Shown piece after piece: positions 2,191-49,986 of a DNA stretch of 64,000 bases. Position numbers and translations under genes: made by a program. Every line of letters starts with the position of its first letter. The stretch's first letter is position 1. This stretch comes from Volvox africanus (Eukaryota > Chlorophyta > Chlorophyceae > Chlamydomonadales > Volvocaceae): NCBI GenBank assembly GCA_030268105.1, contig BSDZ01000021.1, positions 682,001 to 746,000 of the forward strand, read 5' to 3'. Below the pieces are notes generated by a model. That model did no database searches. It saw nothing but the letters and a program-made list of their open reading frames with translations, and was not told the origin of the DNA.

Positions 2191-4780
2191 ACTTCTTCTA
2201 GCAAAGTACTGCCGAATTGAGCACAGTGTACCACAACGAAGCGAGTGACCCTTTAGGCGACCGCAACTTCGTTACAAAGCTCTTAAAAGCAATTAAAATT
2301 CTTTTTCTAATGAAATCCTTATTTGTGTATACCTATGTTGGTAAGTGATCTGACATTCCTTGAAAACATGGCGCACAATTATCCGCGGTATGTACCCGAC
2401 AGCAACCCTGATGTGTGAATGTAGGATCTTGGGATAGCGACTATTACCTCTGAAGCATCTGTGTCCAAATCTGCACTGTTAGAAACTCAATATGGAGACG
2501 GTTACGTCGTATATTAGTACATTCTGATGGTTGACGGCTATTGCCGCAGTTACGCACACCTGAGACCCGACCAGACATCGGCAAACGAATATTTGAAATT
2601 TTAGGAAGGGGCCAATTTCTGTCATCTCTAAAAACATTGGTGCTTAAACCTGCGTTATTCCGATTTTCGAATTGAACATTGTTCATTTTTCTGATGTTCA
2701 ACATAACTTCAAATAGTATGGTTCTCAGATAGTTGTACAAAACGTGCACACATCGGTGAGGTCTATCTGGTGCTGTATGTATGCTCACGATGCATGTTCA
2801 CCCCCCAACACCCGCCCGCCCAAAATATTCCCTCATTCGCCACAACTCCATCCCAAGAATCCCGTACCATACCGAACACACAATTTCCTCGACATACTTT
2901 AATGATACAGGCTGAACACCTCACATCAAAACACATTTCCATGACTTAACATAATAAACCCAATAAGCCACAGCAAGTAAGTGGGTACTCATTATCATTA
3001 CACGCTCCAGCATGCATGGGCGGACCACATATGCCCAAGGGACAACACGCCGCTGCCCTCCACGAGTGCATTATTACGGGCTTAAATCGCAATTGGCATG
3101 CATATTTGGGGGCATCGGAGGGGGTGCGGGTTAGATGCAGGTGGCAATAGAGCGCCAGGCAGGTGGGGTCATGGCATTGCATGCACGTAAGGGGGTGATA
3201 TGCTATATTCAGTTATGATAGCCTTAAAATACATCAGGCCAGGCGGTCCGACTGGACCTATCAAGCCGGTGTACGCATTAATGCGTTCACCACAATATTA
3301 TGTGCGTGGTGGCGCACGCGCGGGGTTTGTTCGTTAGCGGATGGACGCTCTGCATGCCCCTTCGAATAATAATGCCCCCTCCCCTCCCCTCCCCTCCCCT
3401 CCGGATGCACAATCAATACGTTCAGAGAACAGCGTATCCATACACGGCCACACACAAACACACATACACACACAAACGTACGCACAGGGAATACACACGC
3501 ACGGAACCAGGTGCGGTGAAGGTCTTCGGAGCACGGCGGCGCTGGATCGAGCGGCAGCACGCAGGGATCCGCAGGCACGGGGAAGGTACCCATGCATGCA
3601 TGCAACCATGGTACCACGCAAGTGCGTGGAGACCTGCACGCAGAAAGCATTACTCGTTGATGAGGTGTTGGAAACCATCACTCCTGGATCTTACTTTGTT
3701 GCCGTAGTATCATGTATAGTAACTAACATATATAATAACCTACATACATCTGCTGGGTGCGTGTTGGATTTATCTCTGTTATATCGCCTGTATGTTTATT
3801 TTCTATCGACTATATACATAGATAGCTTGCATGATCGTTTTTTATTAGACGACCGGAACCAATAGATGGACTATAGTCGTCATCGACTTTATATAGACAC
3901 CAAGTATCGATAGCTGATATCGACTTAAGGTATCATGCATGGGTGCACGCATCCCCTTGCATGGAGACAACCATGAATTGAGCGCGTCTGCATTGTCCAA
4001 GTTACAACGCAGGTTGCGAGAAGCGCAGTCCTGCTGATCTGCTGATCTGCCGGATCGATAGATGGCAGGGATAGATGATGAGATCTATTAGGACTGATGC
4101 AGTTTGTACGAAGCACTGGTCTGCGTACGCAAAGGTGTTTATGCACCTGGTCATCTCGGATACTAGCTACCCGTAGACACCCCAGCCAGGGTAGACACCC
4201 CATATACTTCAAGTGGCGCCCTTCGGTTTTGGCCTCTACGAGGGGCCCCTTCGTAAGGTGGCAGATGCCCTTGCAGCGAAGTAAGCCTCCTGATGGCATT
4301 CCGCTGACAGTATGCACGTACATGCCTATTATTGCAAGATATCCAGTGTGTATACATTGGCACGGTTTTAGGAGTACAGCAGGGCGGCGGGGTAGGTAGG
4401 TGCGATTTGCCAGAAGATAGAGACAGTCCTAAAATTAATCTTTGATACCACACACATACATACATACACACACAAACATATATATACATATATAATGTGC
4501 AGTATTTAGATAAATAGATAGATAGACAGATACTGCCCTAATTAGATACTAGATACTGCAATCGTCTGCTGACCGCACCGTGGATATTCGTTCTTGCTTT
4601 CCAATCTTATATGCATGCTCATTTTGTATTTAGAAGTTTTGCGATGTATAAAGACTCATATAGATGAAAGTTTTAAAAGTTACATAGTATCATGTTCATT
4701 TTGTAGCGCGAGAATAAGTATATCTTTATCATCAGCTAACTAGCTTATTTATTGATCATCACTCATTATTTGCTATTAGC
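2191..4780. other. Intergenic, simple-sequence rich, no supported gene
   Basis: This is the upstream side of RFT1. I see no reading frame with recognisable protein features or a convincing splice pattern. It holds a CCCCT-type pyrimidine array at about 3375-3402, a CACA/CAAACA-rich stretch at about 3450-3485, ATAC/ATAT-rich stretches around 4445-4495 and an AGAT array near 4508-4530. Confidence 0.5.
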
Positions 4781-44421: not shown

Positions 44422-44720
44422 TCAGGCCTGCACCTGGCTCGCTGGGCAGCACGTGAAGTCGGCATTGTTAAGTGAGAACACGCAGCTGCTGCCGTAACAC
44501 AGTTTCACGGGAGCACTGCAGGCGCTGGCTTGGTGTATCTCCAGGCACATGTATAGCCCGCTGGCAGGGGTCACAGGGAAGGTGTCGGCCAAACGGCTAA
44601 CGGTCATGAGGCCGTACGTCTCCCCCCGCCATGTCTTGACACTGTAGAAAGGATAGACGGACACACCGTTGATGGTGGCTGAACGAACGGCCTTCGGAAC
44701 CTCCTCCACACAGGCGCGGT
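44422..44720 (-). CDS. Pherophorin, last exon (C-terminal domain)
   Basis: Pherophorins are secreted hydroxyproline-rich glycoproteins of the volvocine extracellular matrix. This exon of about 99 residues starts after a gtgcag acceptor in phase 1 and ends at a stop codon. It has the C-terminal pherophorin-domain pattern: RACVEEVPKAVRSATINGV, an aromatic segment with VYPFY, GLYMCLEI, LCYGSSC and the terminal TCCPAS with paired Cys. No upstream exon, Pro-rich spacer or N-terminal domain was found before rickettsial-like DNA begins at about 44,873. The gene is either truncated or interrupted by that insertion, or has a long intron containing it. Confidence 0.75.
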
Positions 44721-44869
44721 CTGCACGCACCACATGGAATCCGTGGGCATTCGTGTGTGAAAGGCTGGGTGTGGGGTGTACGGCCGTCCGTAAGTGTCAA
44801 GTGGGATTTCGAAACCAGTCAGTGTGCGGAATAACACGGCTCTATGTATACGCCGAGCATACTGTATGC

Positions 44870-45325
44870 TCAGTCAGCTGTTGCATTTAATATGCTATCT
44901 GCCGTAGACATGGCCATGGCTATAATACCTATTGTTATCAAGCCTTTAAAACCGCTGTAGCTATATTTATCTATTATAAATCCTAGTAATTGATCAGCCC
45001 TTAGGTTATCGTTCATACTCAATGCTAAAAAAGCAATCCAACACGTCGTTAACATAACAAATGTGAGAAGAAAAGCGGATATAGTAAATGCTTTTTTTAC
45101 TTGGCTTATACTACTGCCTATTAAAATTCTTTGAAACGCCGCTGGACGCAACGATGGAATAGTGAAGTAAAAAATTAGACTAACCATAGCCCAGAATTTA
45201 GGATTGTCAGTATTGGTTAACTCACTAAACTTAAAATTATTAGAGATAAAAACGTGGCTTACAGAATGATTGGTATAATACATCTGATTCCACATAGTTA
45301 CTGCAATAATCGGTATTACTGTCAT
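44870..45325 (-). pseudogene. Sodium:solute symporter (SSS family) fragment, Rickettsiales-like
   Basis: About 150 residues of a polytopic transporter with several hydrophobic helices (YFTIPSLRPAAFQRIL, FLLTFVMLTTCWIAFLAL, GLITIGIIAMAMSTADSILN). The AMSTADSxLN motif is typical of PutP-like sodium/solute symporters. The N-terminal half is missing because an IS21-type end abuts it at 45326. The C-terminal part stops right after the motif, where algal sequence resumes. AT-rich codon use contrasts with neighbouring exons. In bacteria the protein imports proline or other solutes; here it is a non-functional relic. Confidence 0.75.
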
Positions 45326-45600
45326 TGTCAACTAAAAAGGGACCACGTATTTGCACCAAAAAGGGACCACTTATCTCAAAAATTTTTAGCTCACGGTAAC
45401 CTCACTTTTTTGATTCTTAGTTCTATAACTTGGTCCAGTAATTTTAATTACTTTTCCATGATGTCTTAACCTATCCGTATATCTGTATATCCTGTATATC
45501 TCTGAAACTATCGTTAAATCTGTGATACCTCCATACTGCATGGCTAATTATTGATATTGGAAATCTGTGTCCTTTTGGTGCGCGGTGTATATACATACAA
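45326..45600 (-). mobile_element. IS21-family insertion sequence end (truncated)
   Basis: The segment starts at 45326 with tgtcaac, followed by two 13-bp direct repeats aaaaagggaccac (45334-45346 and 45358-45370). Multiple terminal repeats of this kind are characteristic of IS21-family ends. The istB-like coding tail follows immediately inside. The other end and istA are missing; the inner border is only approximate. Confidence 0.7.
45386..45541 (-). pseudogene. istB: istB C-terminal remnant (IS21 helper ATPase)
   Basis: A 51-residue open frame ends in a stop codon just inside the terminal repeats. It contains DRLRHHGKVIKITGPSYR, matching the conserved end of IstB (D-R-x-x-H-H-x-x-x-I-x-I-x-G-x-S-Y-R). 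IstB is the AAA+ helper of the IstA transposase. The ATPase core is absent and the first 20 residues, rich in repeated I-Y-R, look degraded. Confidence 0.7.
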
Positions 45601-45655
45601 TCACTAAAATAATATTGCTTAAACTATAATAAAATATTACTTATTCCCCTTCACT

Positions 45656-45841
45656 TCAATATACTAATTCCCTTCCAATATTAACTTGACGGTGCCCTTC
45701 CGAATTGGCGTGGCAATCGAACCACGTTGTTACTTTCTGCTCTTTACCCTCAGTTACAAAGTTTGGATACTCCTGAGGTTTTGGAACTATCAGGTTTTTT
45801 CCAACATAACCTATTACTTCCATTTCCGCTGTAGTTATCAT
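45656..45841 (-). pseudogene. SSB-like single-stranded DNA-binding protein fragment
   Basis: A 61-residue frame begins TTAEMEVIGYVGKNL, includes KVTTWFDCHA and ends at a stop soon after. The start and the TTW-F motif match short phage/plasmid-type SSB proteins, which are usually over 100 residues, so it is truncated. It lies 20 bp downstream of the recT remnant in the same orientation, the usual recombination-module order, which supports the call. Confidence 0.5.
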
Positions 45842-45861
45842 TTTTATCTTCTCAAATATTT

Positions 45862-46316
45862 TTAATTTAGTAAGTTAGAATCCTCGTCATAATCTTCAAC
45901 TCTTAGCGGTAAGCCTAAATTCTTTCCCAGTTTCCGAATAGTTACCACTAATGCCATCGCCTCAAAATGAGTTCCCCACGGTGAATCAGGTTTGTGTGAG
46001 CTACGGGAACTTGCCATGCTCTCGTTAATCTCATCCCTGAAACACACTTTTATTTGCACCTCACCTGATTTTAGCTTTACCATACCATAAGTTGCAATAA
46101 GATTATCCTTATGCTGCTTCTCTTTTGACGGGACATGTTTAATATTAGGATTCATCCCAAATTCATAATCAAAAAAGTCATCCTTATAAACCCCGTAAGA
46201 GTAAACATTAGACACTAATGGATTGTTAAATAGCAGTTTAAGCTATCCTCTATAGCCTATTTGCAAGTCAATTGCCTGTCCGAGTGACACAGCAGGATCA
46301 AGTCCATGCTTCGTTT
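45862..46316 (-). pseudogene. recT: recT remnant (phage-type single-strand annealing protein)
   Basis: The intact part (45862-46215) shows the RecT central and C-terminal pattern: VYSYGVYKDDFFDYEFG, PNIKHVPSKE, LIATYGMVKLKSGEVQ, SPWGTHFEAMA, then a basic VTIRKLGKNL stretch. Upstream in the same frame, KHGLDPAVSLGQA and LQIGYRG are recognisable. Residues normally lying between those two motifs are missing, and an in-frame TAG (46243-46245) follows the GYRG motif. The N-terminal region is absent, replaced by AsmA-like sequence. RecT anneals single strands in phage recombination; this copy is dead. Confidence 0.75.
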
Positions 46317-46525
46317 TTTTCAATATTGTAATTGGAACTACCTTTAGCAATTAATTCTCCAAAATTAATCTCGATATCAGTAACTTTTACTAAGTTTTTA
46401 TCGGCATTAATATTTAAAGCAAGTTTGTGTTTTACGTTATCCTCAATATTAAGGTTGGGTATCAAATTTTTAAGATTTTTAGCATCTCCCTCTAGCTGCA
46501 ATTTACCGATAAAAGAGCCGTGTCA
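46298..46525 (-). pseudogene. AsmA-like membrane-biogenesis protein fragment, Rickettsiales-like
   Basis: About 75 residues with KLQLEGDAKNLKNLIPNLNI, HKLALNINAD and VTDIEINFGELIAKGSSNYN. Alternating beta-strand repeats of this style occur in AsmA/TamB-like proteins of alphaproteobacteria. It fuses out of frame with the recT remnant near 46316, and its 5' side ends near 46525 where algal-looking sequence resumes. Identification is by style and phrases only. Confidence 0.5.
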
Positions 46526-46575
46526 TAATTATGTCATAAGGGTTGTTTGAGGTCACTAAATCGGACAAAACCATA

Positions 46576-47172
46576 TTAAGTGAACGGCTGGCATGGCGCT
46601 GCAGCACTCAGGATAGCCTGCAATATCCCGCCAGCGTTTAATTCAGAGACGATGGCTGTATTTAAGGGAGTAGGAATCGGAAACGGCACCAGGAAATTGG
46701 GCGCTGTGCATCCCGGGGCGCCGTTGTACCGGGCTTTAAAGTCGGCCTCCAAGAGGAAGCCCACAGTTGGGACGGCAACCGCGAATGCCTCTTGACGAAT
46801 GACAGCGTTGCCGGTGCCGTTGACTGTGGTGCCGTTATTGACGGGGAACGGTAGAGCTCCCACCTCCATAAGTAATGCTGAGGAATTTCCCACTACGGCG
46901 CCCGTTTGCGCGTTGTAAAGGGGTAACCTAATTTCATTGACTGGGACGCCCTTGCTGTAGAGCTGTATGCTGTCACCACATGAGACTGCTGCTGCCGAAT
47001 GCGACGTCAGCAATACGTACAGCATTACTATTAAGATGGAGGATAGTGTTAAGTTGTTCCATGTAATTTTGTTCAAGTGATTTTGGCGGCTTGGCATTCG
47101 TAATTGCACCTGCCGCGAGCTGCGGTATGTTGCTGCCTCCCACGGACGATTCCTATTGAGACCCATCTTCAT
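46576..47172 (-). CDS. Secreted protein exon, unidentified, algal
   Basis: A frame of up to 198 residues; starting at the internal Met at 47097 gives about 173 residues with a hydrophobic signal segment (LTLSSILIVMLYVLLTSHSA) and an Ala-rich cleavage area. The mature part has three Cys, several NGT/NSS glycosylation-type sequons and blocks such as NEIRLPLYNAQTGAVVG and FLLEADFKARYNGAPGC. I do not recognise the family; it is not a standard pherophorin domain. It could be the N-terminal part of a larger matrix gene whose 3' side was displaced, since its stop lies only about 45 bp from rickettsial-like DNA. It reads toward the pherophorin exon. Confidence 0.5.
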   Translation of the reverse strand: MKMGLNRNRPWEAATYRSSRQVQLRMPSRQNHLNKITWNNLTLSSILIVMLYVLLTSHSAAAVSCGDSIQLYSKGVPVNEIRLPLYNAQTGAVVGNSSALLMEVGALPFPVNNGTTVNGTGNAVIRQEAFAVAVPTVGFLLEADFKARYNGAPGCTAPNFLVPFPIPTPLNTAIVSELNAGGILQAILSAAAPCQPFT

Positions 47173-47373
47173 TCGGCAGCAACAGCACTGTGTGCGATGA
47201 AACTTGTATTGTCACTGAAGATCCCGCAACCTTGCTCGTTACAGCTCTCAGCAACCTCCCCGTTCGCCCGTGGGATGTCAATAGGAGGCTGGCGCCTACG
47301 CAGAAAAAGGCAAAACTGAGCACGGCTGTATGAGTAGTCATGTGGCATTCATAACATTGATTATTTTACTCGC

Positions 47374-47466
47374 TGTGGTTTTGGCAGATGTGCTTTTGGC
47401 AGATATGGTTTTGCAAGATATGGTTTTGGCAGGTACAGTTCTGGCAGGTACCGTTTTGGCAGGTAA
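47374..47466. repeat. 17-18 bp tandem repeat
   Basis: Five to six imperfect copies of a tggttttggcagatatgg / ggttttggcaggtaccg type unit. Confidence 0.7.
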
Positions 47467-49175
47467 TATGTAAATTAGGCTGATGATGATGGGTTTCCCA
47501 AGCTGGTCCATCGTTCGTGGTAGGGATGGCTGGACTGCCTGCGTTAGACGGTCAAACTGCCAAAAGCCTCATCATGACTACATAATAAGTCCACACTCTG
47601 ATGATGCCGCCGGGCAGCAAAGTTGCAGGCACGTACGAGGCAAGTAAGCACATGAGATTTGGACGACAATGTTGGAAGCAGGGCATGCACATCGGTCATC
47701 ATAATGACAGGTCCTGCGTCTATTGCGCCAGATTCGGACACACCCACACCCACCCTTTCAGGCGCTGGTAGCAAGACTGTGAAACCTCCGACACCGCCAA
47801 CCTTTGACCTCTTGTTGTCCCGTCTCTCCTCAAGTAAAGGCGATGTTTGATGGGTAGAGAACACTCCGGGATGGCGGAGGAAAAAACAACGCTCCCAGAA
47901 AAAAAATAGTTTTCACTCAAGTCACTAAATAATGAACGCCGACATGCATGTATTCATAAAGTGCGACATAAGTGTCTGGCCGTCTAAGCTAACTGCCGTG
48001 GAAAGCAGCAGGCCAGGAGCGCCAGGGTACAGCGCGCACTATCTCACTATGTATTTGAACACCCCTTATTATTAAGGGTTCGAGTCAGTGTGAAACCGTA
48101 TAACAAAAAAGGCATGTTGACGGCCTCCGTACTCCGCATTACTACGAGAATGTCGATTTCCGATTGATCCATCGATGCATGGCTTGCTTGGCAAAGTTCA
48201 CACTTGCATATTAATACCTCAAATACCGCACCCTTCTCACCCAATCACAGCTACAGATCATAGTTGCAACTCCACAAATAGGCTGTGTTCTCCTGTATGT
48301 GTATAGCTAGCTAGCGAAAACGGTATTATTGCCGCAGGCCGGCCTTTGCTTTCTTCCTTGTATATGATTAATTTATTAGGCATGCAAAATGATTGGCCAC
48401 TGGAAGGATTGAAGAGAAGTTCCGATAGTTGGCTTAATCTTTCGTAACTGGTTTTTCAGGTCATATGGACCTCTTTCGACGGATTCGGAAATGCTGTCCC
48501 ATGCTCATGCAGTCCCTGCTGTCCTTGCGATAGCGAGCTCAAGAAGCCGTAAAATGGGGCTCCACCAATTTATGCTCAGATATTCTGTTTCATCTGTTCG
48601 GAAAGATACAAAGAGACCAGGCCGAAACCGATAAAATAACGAAGATAAGTTGCTTGGGTTTTCAGATATGTTTATACGGTCATTACAAGGACACAAGGGA
48701 AATAAAGCTTCATTTAATCCAAGATACAATTGAGCCGCATTGCCACTAACTGAAGTACCGAATAACATAGGTCCACCTACCATATAATGATGGCTGAAAT
48801 GCGCTTGAAGTAATAGGAGGGATTAGCTGCCTCTACCTTTAATCTAACCACTGCTGTGTCGGTCGACATTCGCACGTGATTACTGTGGCACCGCTGAGCT
48901 AGGACCTGCCAGATAAATAGTAGGGCTTTTATTCCATTGGTGGCGCCTCAGTATCCTAATATTCGATGCAAATATATCGCATATCAATCTGTGTGAGACG
49001 TGTAAGGAGTGAGAGTGAGGTGCACTTTAAGTTATCTGCACTGTGCGGCAATATGCACTGCTGGTACCTCGGCTCCTGCCACTGGAATAAACCCGCTACA
49101 TCATGCATGGTGAAGTCATGTACCCGAAATATCCTATAAATCGTTCGACAGGGTACAGCTCTCTGCTGCTGAACT

Positions 49176-49290: not shown

Positions 49291-49986
49291 AGATAGCGCC
49301 GTACCCTGTCTCACTCTTGGCAGTATGTTTCTCATAGATTGCCTGAACCCTGAGATGATTGCTCCATAGATACAAGAAAGGGCCTGCAGCAATCCCGGTT
49401 TTGCTGAAAAAAACAGAATGTGCTGCACCGAAGGGCCTCGGGTCACACCCTGGCACGTATGGTAGTTTTTAATACTGTTGAAGTCAGCAAAGCGCCCGGC
49501 CCCTCGTGGGCCGTATTATTTGCTCTGACATTCTTTCGTATATGAGTGTTGCTCACATTCCAACAAATACCATACTAACCCGGGTCCGACGACGTACTTT
49601 CATCCCTAAGATTAATGTAGACAAACATCCCTCCCCAAACCAACCACGCTGGTTTCGCGGAAGATATGACCCCCCATTCCCCTTGAATGGGCAGTAGCCA
49701 TCACCAGATTGATTTCCCTATTTGTGCGACGTCCGCAAAGCAAGTTATCTGTAACAATCCAAGATCGCCCAAGGGCTACCCGTGGTCCTTTTTATGATCG
49801 CGTCTTGAAAACGTTTCTTTACTTAAAAATGTATTCCTCATTTTGGGCTTGACCTACTTCTGGTGACAGCTGGCACCTGGCAAGACCAAAGCCTGGCAGT
49901 TGGAGTCATGCGGCAGTTGTTAATTGCCGAGTTGCACACCCTTCTCCCTCAGTGCGCCTCAGCTCGATCACCAGCAAAGATAAAGG

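Follow-up and report, generated by a model that had tools for sequence, protein, structure and literature searches.

Rickettsial DNA has been published from the nuclear genome of Volvox carteri (Kawafune 2015, PMC4324946), and the available portion of a later paper cites the V. carteri inserts as partial Megaira inserts (PMC9098888). Judged from the available portions of the former report, the locus described here resembles the V. carteri insert in its Megaera-type (hydra group) donor, volvocine host and truncated genes, and in having an apparently non-contiguous joint (16S beside murB in V. carteri) in an alga without the symbiont. The two differ in gene content and position, the V. carteri insert carrying 16S, murB, ddlB and ftsQ at another locus, whereas our block is without murB; a MurB_C domain was not found in our genome, in a search for which none of the named controls (14 genomes) belongs to Rickettsiaceae and which may therefore miss a Megaera murB. 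In addition, those portions describe neither a replaced host exon nor a templated filler. Complex numts and nupts and mosaic organelle insertions, in the portions available of PMC6215612 and PMC2820518, represent, as our block probably does, several fragments taken up at breaks through end joining, but their donor is an organelle, whereas that of our block appears to be an endosymbiont; more than half of the numt events in human and chimpanzee occurred without deletion and the rest with very small ones (PMC2820518, same portions), whereas 1.13 kb of host DNA was lost here. The Wolbachia fossils of Dictyocaulus viviparus (PMC4046930, in the part available) also represent fragmented Rickettsiales DNA in the nucleus of a host that has lost the symbiont; they carry many inactivating mutations, whereas our block shows slight point decay. 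Endosymbiont transfer to the nucleus is thus already on record for V. carteri (PMC4324946), as are organelle inserts made of several fragments (PMC6215612), and the insert described here adds another case.

The window analysed, 64,000 nucleotides of Volvox africanus (G000:C21:682001-746000), comes from an assembly of 141 Mb in 126 contigs. We found that a block of rickettsial DNA of about 1.7 kb lies inside this volvocine-type algal contig, with algal host DNA flanking it on both sides on the one contig and the GC content falling from 0.59 in the flank to 0.29-0.42 within the block (200-bp windows). A reading made from the sequence only had placed the block at 44873-46530; the block itself stands, with its edges moved to 44850-46534 by homology of the flanks to paralogs on contig C5 (Table 1). 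The window insert is distinguished by the empty-site comparison, by a replaced host segment with apparently templated fillers and by the company it has in this genome, and its break-repair scars are unusually readable, giving a base-resolved record (empty site, host deletion, joints and fillers) of what appears to be the entry of endosymbiont DNA into a nucleus. Volvocine algae are also close to the genetic model Chlamydomonas.

Table 1. Features of the inserted block and of its host gene (window coordinates)
Feature	Position	Strand	Basis
Last pherophorin exon, second part of DUF3707	44422..44733	-	PF12499 E=3e-9; 95-99% to four C5 copies
Whole bacterial block, replacing 1,133 bp of host gene	44850..46534		L067 homology stops at 46535, resumes at 44849
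25-bp filler, host junction J2, hairpin with 8-bp arms	44850..44874		Fits neither donor nor host edge
Sodium:solute symporter gene, internal fragment	44875..45319	-	96% over 445 bp to G002:C202
IS21-family right end and istB 3' tail (160 bp)	45320..45479	-	96% to two G001 copies
Illegitimate joint istB/IS6, ambiguous bases, TATATC-type repeats	45480..45489		istB similarity ends at 45479; IS6 rows start at 45478-45496
Presumed IS6-family transposase, 5' part, ~200 bp	45490..45696	-	68-81% rows in G021, G029, G030, G037, G073, G084
ssb 5' part, cut by IS6 end, 12-residue in-frame gap	45697..45841	-	tblastn to pPCS148 SSB residues 1-65, 57%
recT 3' half, one in-frame stop, 24-bp in-frame gap	45874..46307	-	Pfam RecT E=3.7e-11
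AsmA-like gene, internal fragment (208 bp)	46308..46515	-	93% to G001:C1:466693-466900, ORF at least 810 aa
19-bp filler, host junction J1	46516..46534		With 2 AsmA bases: 10-bp inverted copy of host 44834-44843
Pherophorin copy, 5' part, stop at 46576-46578 before break	46535..48688	-	94.7% to L067 6-2138

The block was compared with its own genome, with plasmids, phages and further loci, and with 85 genomes from the family to which the Mesostigma Megaira belongs, a set that includes two genomes matched beforehand (G001 and G002); some part of the block was matched in 29 of the 85. The closest relatives found by the DNA search, which among algae covered this genome only, were Rickettsiaceae, the nearest being Candidatus Megaera/Megaira and a Rickettsiales MAG from lake Erken (G002), with identities of 96% for the symporter, 96% for IS21, 93% for AsmA and 88% for recT. 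Since the E-values of the symporter, ssb-recT, AsmA and IS21 pieces range from 2e-207 to 3e-70, chance is excluded for these; the best E-value of the IS6 piece is 2.7e-18. Each of the five fragments named from the sequence only (symporter, IS21 end with istB tail, SSB-like, recT and AsmA-like) was traced to Rickettsiaceae DNA, and to that list should be added the omitted 5' part of a transposase, at ~45490-45696 with a terminal repeat, which we take to be of the IS6 family. Within this alga, the block's own DNA matches are more rickettsial pieces; elsewhere in the window, comparison with a limited set of bacterial loci gave no additional rickettsial match. A phage origin was rejected, as the block found no match by blastn among 50,697 phage records and the symporter found no relative in a scan of viral contigs. 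Scanned against genome contigs, the recT fragment found no relative; a FadB-like ORF of contig C36 used as bait found two donor relatives. Matches of the fragments to the Pfam families TPR_28, Ribosomal_S24e and DUF1405 were under the cut-off and were taken as chance.

All coding pieces of the block read on the minus strand. The symporter fragment alone had no SSF match in Pfam, and the intact donor ORF matches PF00474 and TIGR00813; in G002 this gene lies on a 14-kb contig beside a frame that reads as UvrB-like. The IS21/istB piece, with a weak Pfam IstB match (E=0.0027), is 96% identical to CP084576 (Megaira endosymbiont of Mesostigma) and 94-100% identical in nine rows to contig C36 of its own genome, and an intact istB is present in L011. 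The terminal repeat of the IS6 piece, TTAACTTGACGGTGCC, is located at 45681-45696 and occurs in both orientations in L051 and L057. The DNA of ssb and recT (~45697-46307) is 79-82% identical to Megaera plasmid AP017966 and, for recT only, 88% identical to CP113871, the recT piece corresponding to residues 131-287 of the pPCS148 RecT (78%) and 111-267 of the NDG2 RecT (82%). The AsmA-like name was assigned by reading of the ORF.

The relatives of these pieces are found on different replicons. Plasmid pPCS148 (AP017966) of M. polyxenophila PCS carries ssb-recT next to tra genes, and in strain NDG2 recT is on a 56-kb plasmid; AsmA is on chromosome contig C1 in G001 and is also chromosomal in G022, which is taken to be PCS. 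Distant relatives of the symporter (~40% protein identity) occur on three Megaera plasmids, so that the symporter piece could be plasmid DNA as well. The block appears to be a mosaic of three or more fragments, namely symporter with IS21 end, IS6 with ssb and recT (plasmid type), and AsmA, and these pieces seem to derive from more than one donor place, judged on relatives of the true donor. It had been proposed that several of the pieces are fused. This holds for two internal joints, istB/IS6 and recT/AsmA, which are illegitimate because they lie inside elements and genes; the symporter/IS21 boundary, at or within a few bases of the end of the IS21 element, and the ssb/IS6 boundary, at the end of the IS6 element, are what ordinary bacterial IS insertion leaves and can predate the transfer.

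The flanks, described earlier as two algal secreted-protein exons, are algal, but both belong to one pherophorin (DUF3707) gene copy that lacks 1,133 bp. Other pherophorin copies lie on C5 at ~1.68-1.73 Mb. With one of them, L067 (C5:1709802-1713395), homology of the window copy covers positions 48688-46535 (94.7%) and 44849-44527 (99.4%, the last position being the fetched end), and L067 2139-3271 is missing. The same two breakpoints were obtained with L068; L070 agrees at one of them and lies within 5 bp at the other, and the 46535 edge recurs in L069 and L071. L067 aligns unbroken through the lost stretch to L068 and L070, showing the empty-site state. The lost segment comprises a proline-rich hinge, the first part of DUF3707 (parent ORF residues 550-612) and the start of an intron. 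PF12499 (pherophorin) was detected in both the last exon and the parent gene, and the N-terminal ORF of the window copy, with no Pfam match alone, shares 67-89% identity with four of the gene copies on C5. Because of the stop codon besides the lost segment, the C21 pherophorin copy is predicted to be dead. At the protein level, the parent gene was matched best in Volvox reticuliferus, with 71-72% identity over 31% of the query (in a search that scored the 7,958 candidates with the most shared words) and, in a second search, 73% of the region.

Both host junctions contain short fillers. The J1 filler and the two bases adjoining it hold AGAGCCGTGT, the reverse complement of host positions 44834-44843, the source lying six bases from the opposite break edge. 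Calculated for only two short fillers and by single-base shuffles, P was 0.00045 for this match (20,000 shuffles) and, since it is the best of 16 comparisons, ~0.7% after correction, with the other 15 unremarkable (P >=0.25); the 8-bp hairpin of the J2 filler had P ~0.0012 (5,000 shuffles). Templated and hairpin fillers are a mark of polymerase-theta-type joining. Such filler insertions are reported by one study in yeast, so that the scar does not settle the enzyme. The junctions nevertheless appear to carry templated filler as Pol-theta-type end joining predicts, and the presence of fillers at both points to double-strand-break repair by Pol-theta-like end joining; in Chlamydomonas, POLQ is the main contributor to random transgene integration, according to the available part of PMC8495919.

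The block had also been described as decayed. Its pieces are indeed truncated, and the damage inside them consists of one in-frame stop in recT and in-frame gaps of 24 bp in recT and of 12 residues in ssb, but point decay is slight. Differences from the nearest donor at codon positions 1/2/3 numbered 4/0/15 in the symporter (445 bp), 3/2/9 in AsmA (208 bp) and 8/6/33 in recT (391 bp). Because neutral nuclear decay would spread evenly over codon positions, most of the differences would have arisen in bacteria, so the transfer appears recent relative to the divergence of the donors.

The earlier proposal of a transfer from a Rickettsiales endosymbiont to the nucleus is the best reading of the Megaera-type matches, the algal flanks and the empty site in the host paralogs. 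We consider it highly probable that pieces of Megaera-type endosymbiont DNA were end-joined into a broken pherophorin copy in one event. An algal ancestor would have harboured a Megaera-type Rickettsiaceae endosymbiont, and a double-strand break in a duplicated pherophorin gene, at which ~1.13 kb of the gene was lost, would have been mended by end joining. At least three endosymbiont pieces would have been joined into the gap, AsmA (chromosomal in relatives), IS6-ssb-recT (plasmid type) and symporter-IS21, with short templated fillers added at both host junctions, as in polymerase-theta-type alternative end joining. The resulting insert would be inert, consisting of gene fragments in a dead pherophorin copy. 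Alternatively, one longer contiguous endosymbiont piece may have entered, and later deletions juxtaposed the fragments; this would still be a nuclear transfer, with the mosaic formed afterwards. The minus-strand orientation of all coding pieces is also what a contiguous donor with internal deletions would give, and small in-frame gaps are present in recT and ssb. However, ssb-recT in PCS and recT in NDG2 are plasmid-borne and AsmA in G001 and G022 is chromosomal, and an array on C5 of the same genome tiles into 87 short matches in mixed order, suggesting that multi-fragment joining occurs in this genome; we therefore regard later deletion as unlikely.

It seems improbable that rickettsial DNA resident in the nucleus, for example that of C36, served as the source of the fragments in place of a living endosymbiont: although the IS21 tail has its nine rows of matches in C36, at 94-100%, neither symporter, recT nor AsmA was found in C36 among the matches listed, the C17 symporter (85%) and C10 AsmA (76%) are more distant than those of outside bacteria (96% and 93%), and on C5 recT is matched over 79 bp with 87% identity. 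We consider an assembly chimera, or contamination from a co-cultured bacterium, very unlikely. The junctions are known here from the assembly alone, but host sequence from one junction is copied in the filler of the other, rickettsial pieces occur in several more contigs, and a Copia element flanked by a 5-bp target duplication interrupts an istB on C36; moreover, neither a full 16S nor a MurB_C domain was found (14 control genomes, none named as Rickettsiaceae). Finally, the symporter and recT stretches are mostly open in frame, as might be expected of a working, domesticated gene transfer, yet every matched gene is truncated, a stop interrupts recT, and the host gene likewise contains a stop besides lacking the first part of its DUF3707 domain, making domestication extremely improbable. 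Tentatively, and with slightly less than even confidence, we suggest that a dying Megaera symbiont released DNA of all sizes, that end joining used this pool for chromosome repair and that the whole size range was recorded, from ~60-bp shards to tens or hundreds of kilobases, as represented by the three-piece window patch, the dozens of shards on C5 and the ~300 kb on C36. With the C36 block and the C5 array, arrival of symbiont DNA intact or pre-cut becomes testable in a volvocine alga. A search of titles and the opening lines of abstracts, with limited subscription coverage, found no report of such a shard array, or of a block the size of that on C36 in a volvocine alga.

Contig C36 (695 kb) contains roughly 300 kb of rickettsial-type DNA, with algal-type DNA on both sides and between, this size being an estimate because sampling was sparse (1.5 kb at each of 14 points, 400 bp at each of 20 and six longer stretches of 5-10 kb) and the bacterial label comes partly from composition and ORF look. 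Among the rickettsial-type loci (L010-L015, L021-L025 and L080-L086), the label is based on DNA matches for L010-L015 and on family matches for L021, L023, L025 and L080, the others being labelled by their composition and the look of their ORFs. Samples taken between 40 and 275 kb and at 335-399 kb showed AT-rich bacterial-type DNA, and those at 1-32 kb, at 283-325 kb and from 402 kb onwards showed algal-type DNA or repeats. Composition was ambiguous at 115, 275 and 362 kb, and low-GC repeats were present at 660 and 693 kb. A Copia-type element (L013:3476-9167), with Retrotran_gag_2, rve and RVT_2 domains and 283-bp LTRs 98.6% alike, sits in a rickettsial istB between copies of the target duplication CTTAG, indicating that this rickettsial DNA lies in a nucleus. 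L010 and L014 (335-345 kb and 382-392 kb) are inverted copies, ~99.3% identical over several kilobases, and in L021 (C36:40001-41500) part of an MFS transporter and part of a RecD-type helicase share a single open frame, perhaps another scrambled joint.

The shard array at C5:743047-751307 (L096 and L017) can be divided into 87 tiles of rickettsial matches, with a median length of 62 bp (32-154) and a median identity of 93%, which cover 5,716 of its 8,261 bp and leave 2,545 bp uncovered; tiles were picked greedily, from 114 of 215 rows, and tiles of multi-copy elements were given one copy each, so the count of shards is approximate. Of the 86 neighbouring pairs, 41 abut to within -4 to +2 bp. 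Tile origins are scattered over both strands and over chromosome contigs and contigs taken as plasmids, and the left end of the array is diffuse, near 739-741 kb by GC samples.

The assembly yielded no rickettsial 16S of full length, by which measure it contains no complete endosymbiont genome. The Megaira 16S query gave 13 partial matches on 11 contigs (C76 and C91 twice). Four of them are longer, located at C76:4636403, C11:304329, C86:1730863 and C91:2708187; lengths among these four are 498, 425, 423 and 213 bp and identities 94-99%. For the other nine, with lengths of 42-103 bp and 77-100% identity, an organellar origin or chance may be part of the explanation. Smaller rickettsial pieces were observed on other contigs. 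On C17, a second rickettsial insert (L009:4421-6231) contains the same symporter gene, 84% identical to G002:C202, followed by multi-copy rickettsial DNA, and is interrupted by a ~94 bp repeat also present at window 49473-49565 (90%). An AsmA fragment (79%) is located on C10 (L018:3731-4088), C91 has a stretch 90% identical to G001 and an IS21 stretch of 81-85% (L016:1814-2425 and 3933-4228), and C27 carries a 48-bp IS21 piece of 96% identity (L019:3034-3081).
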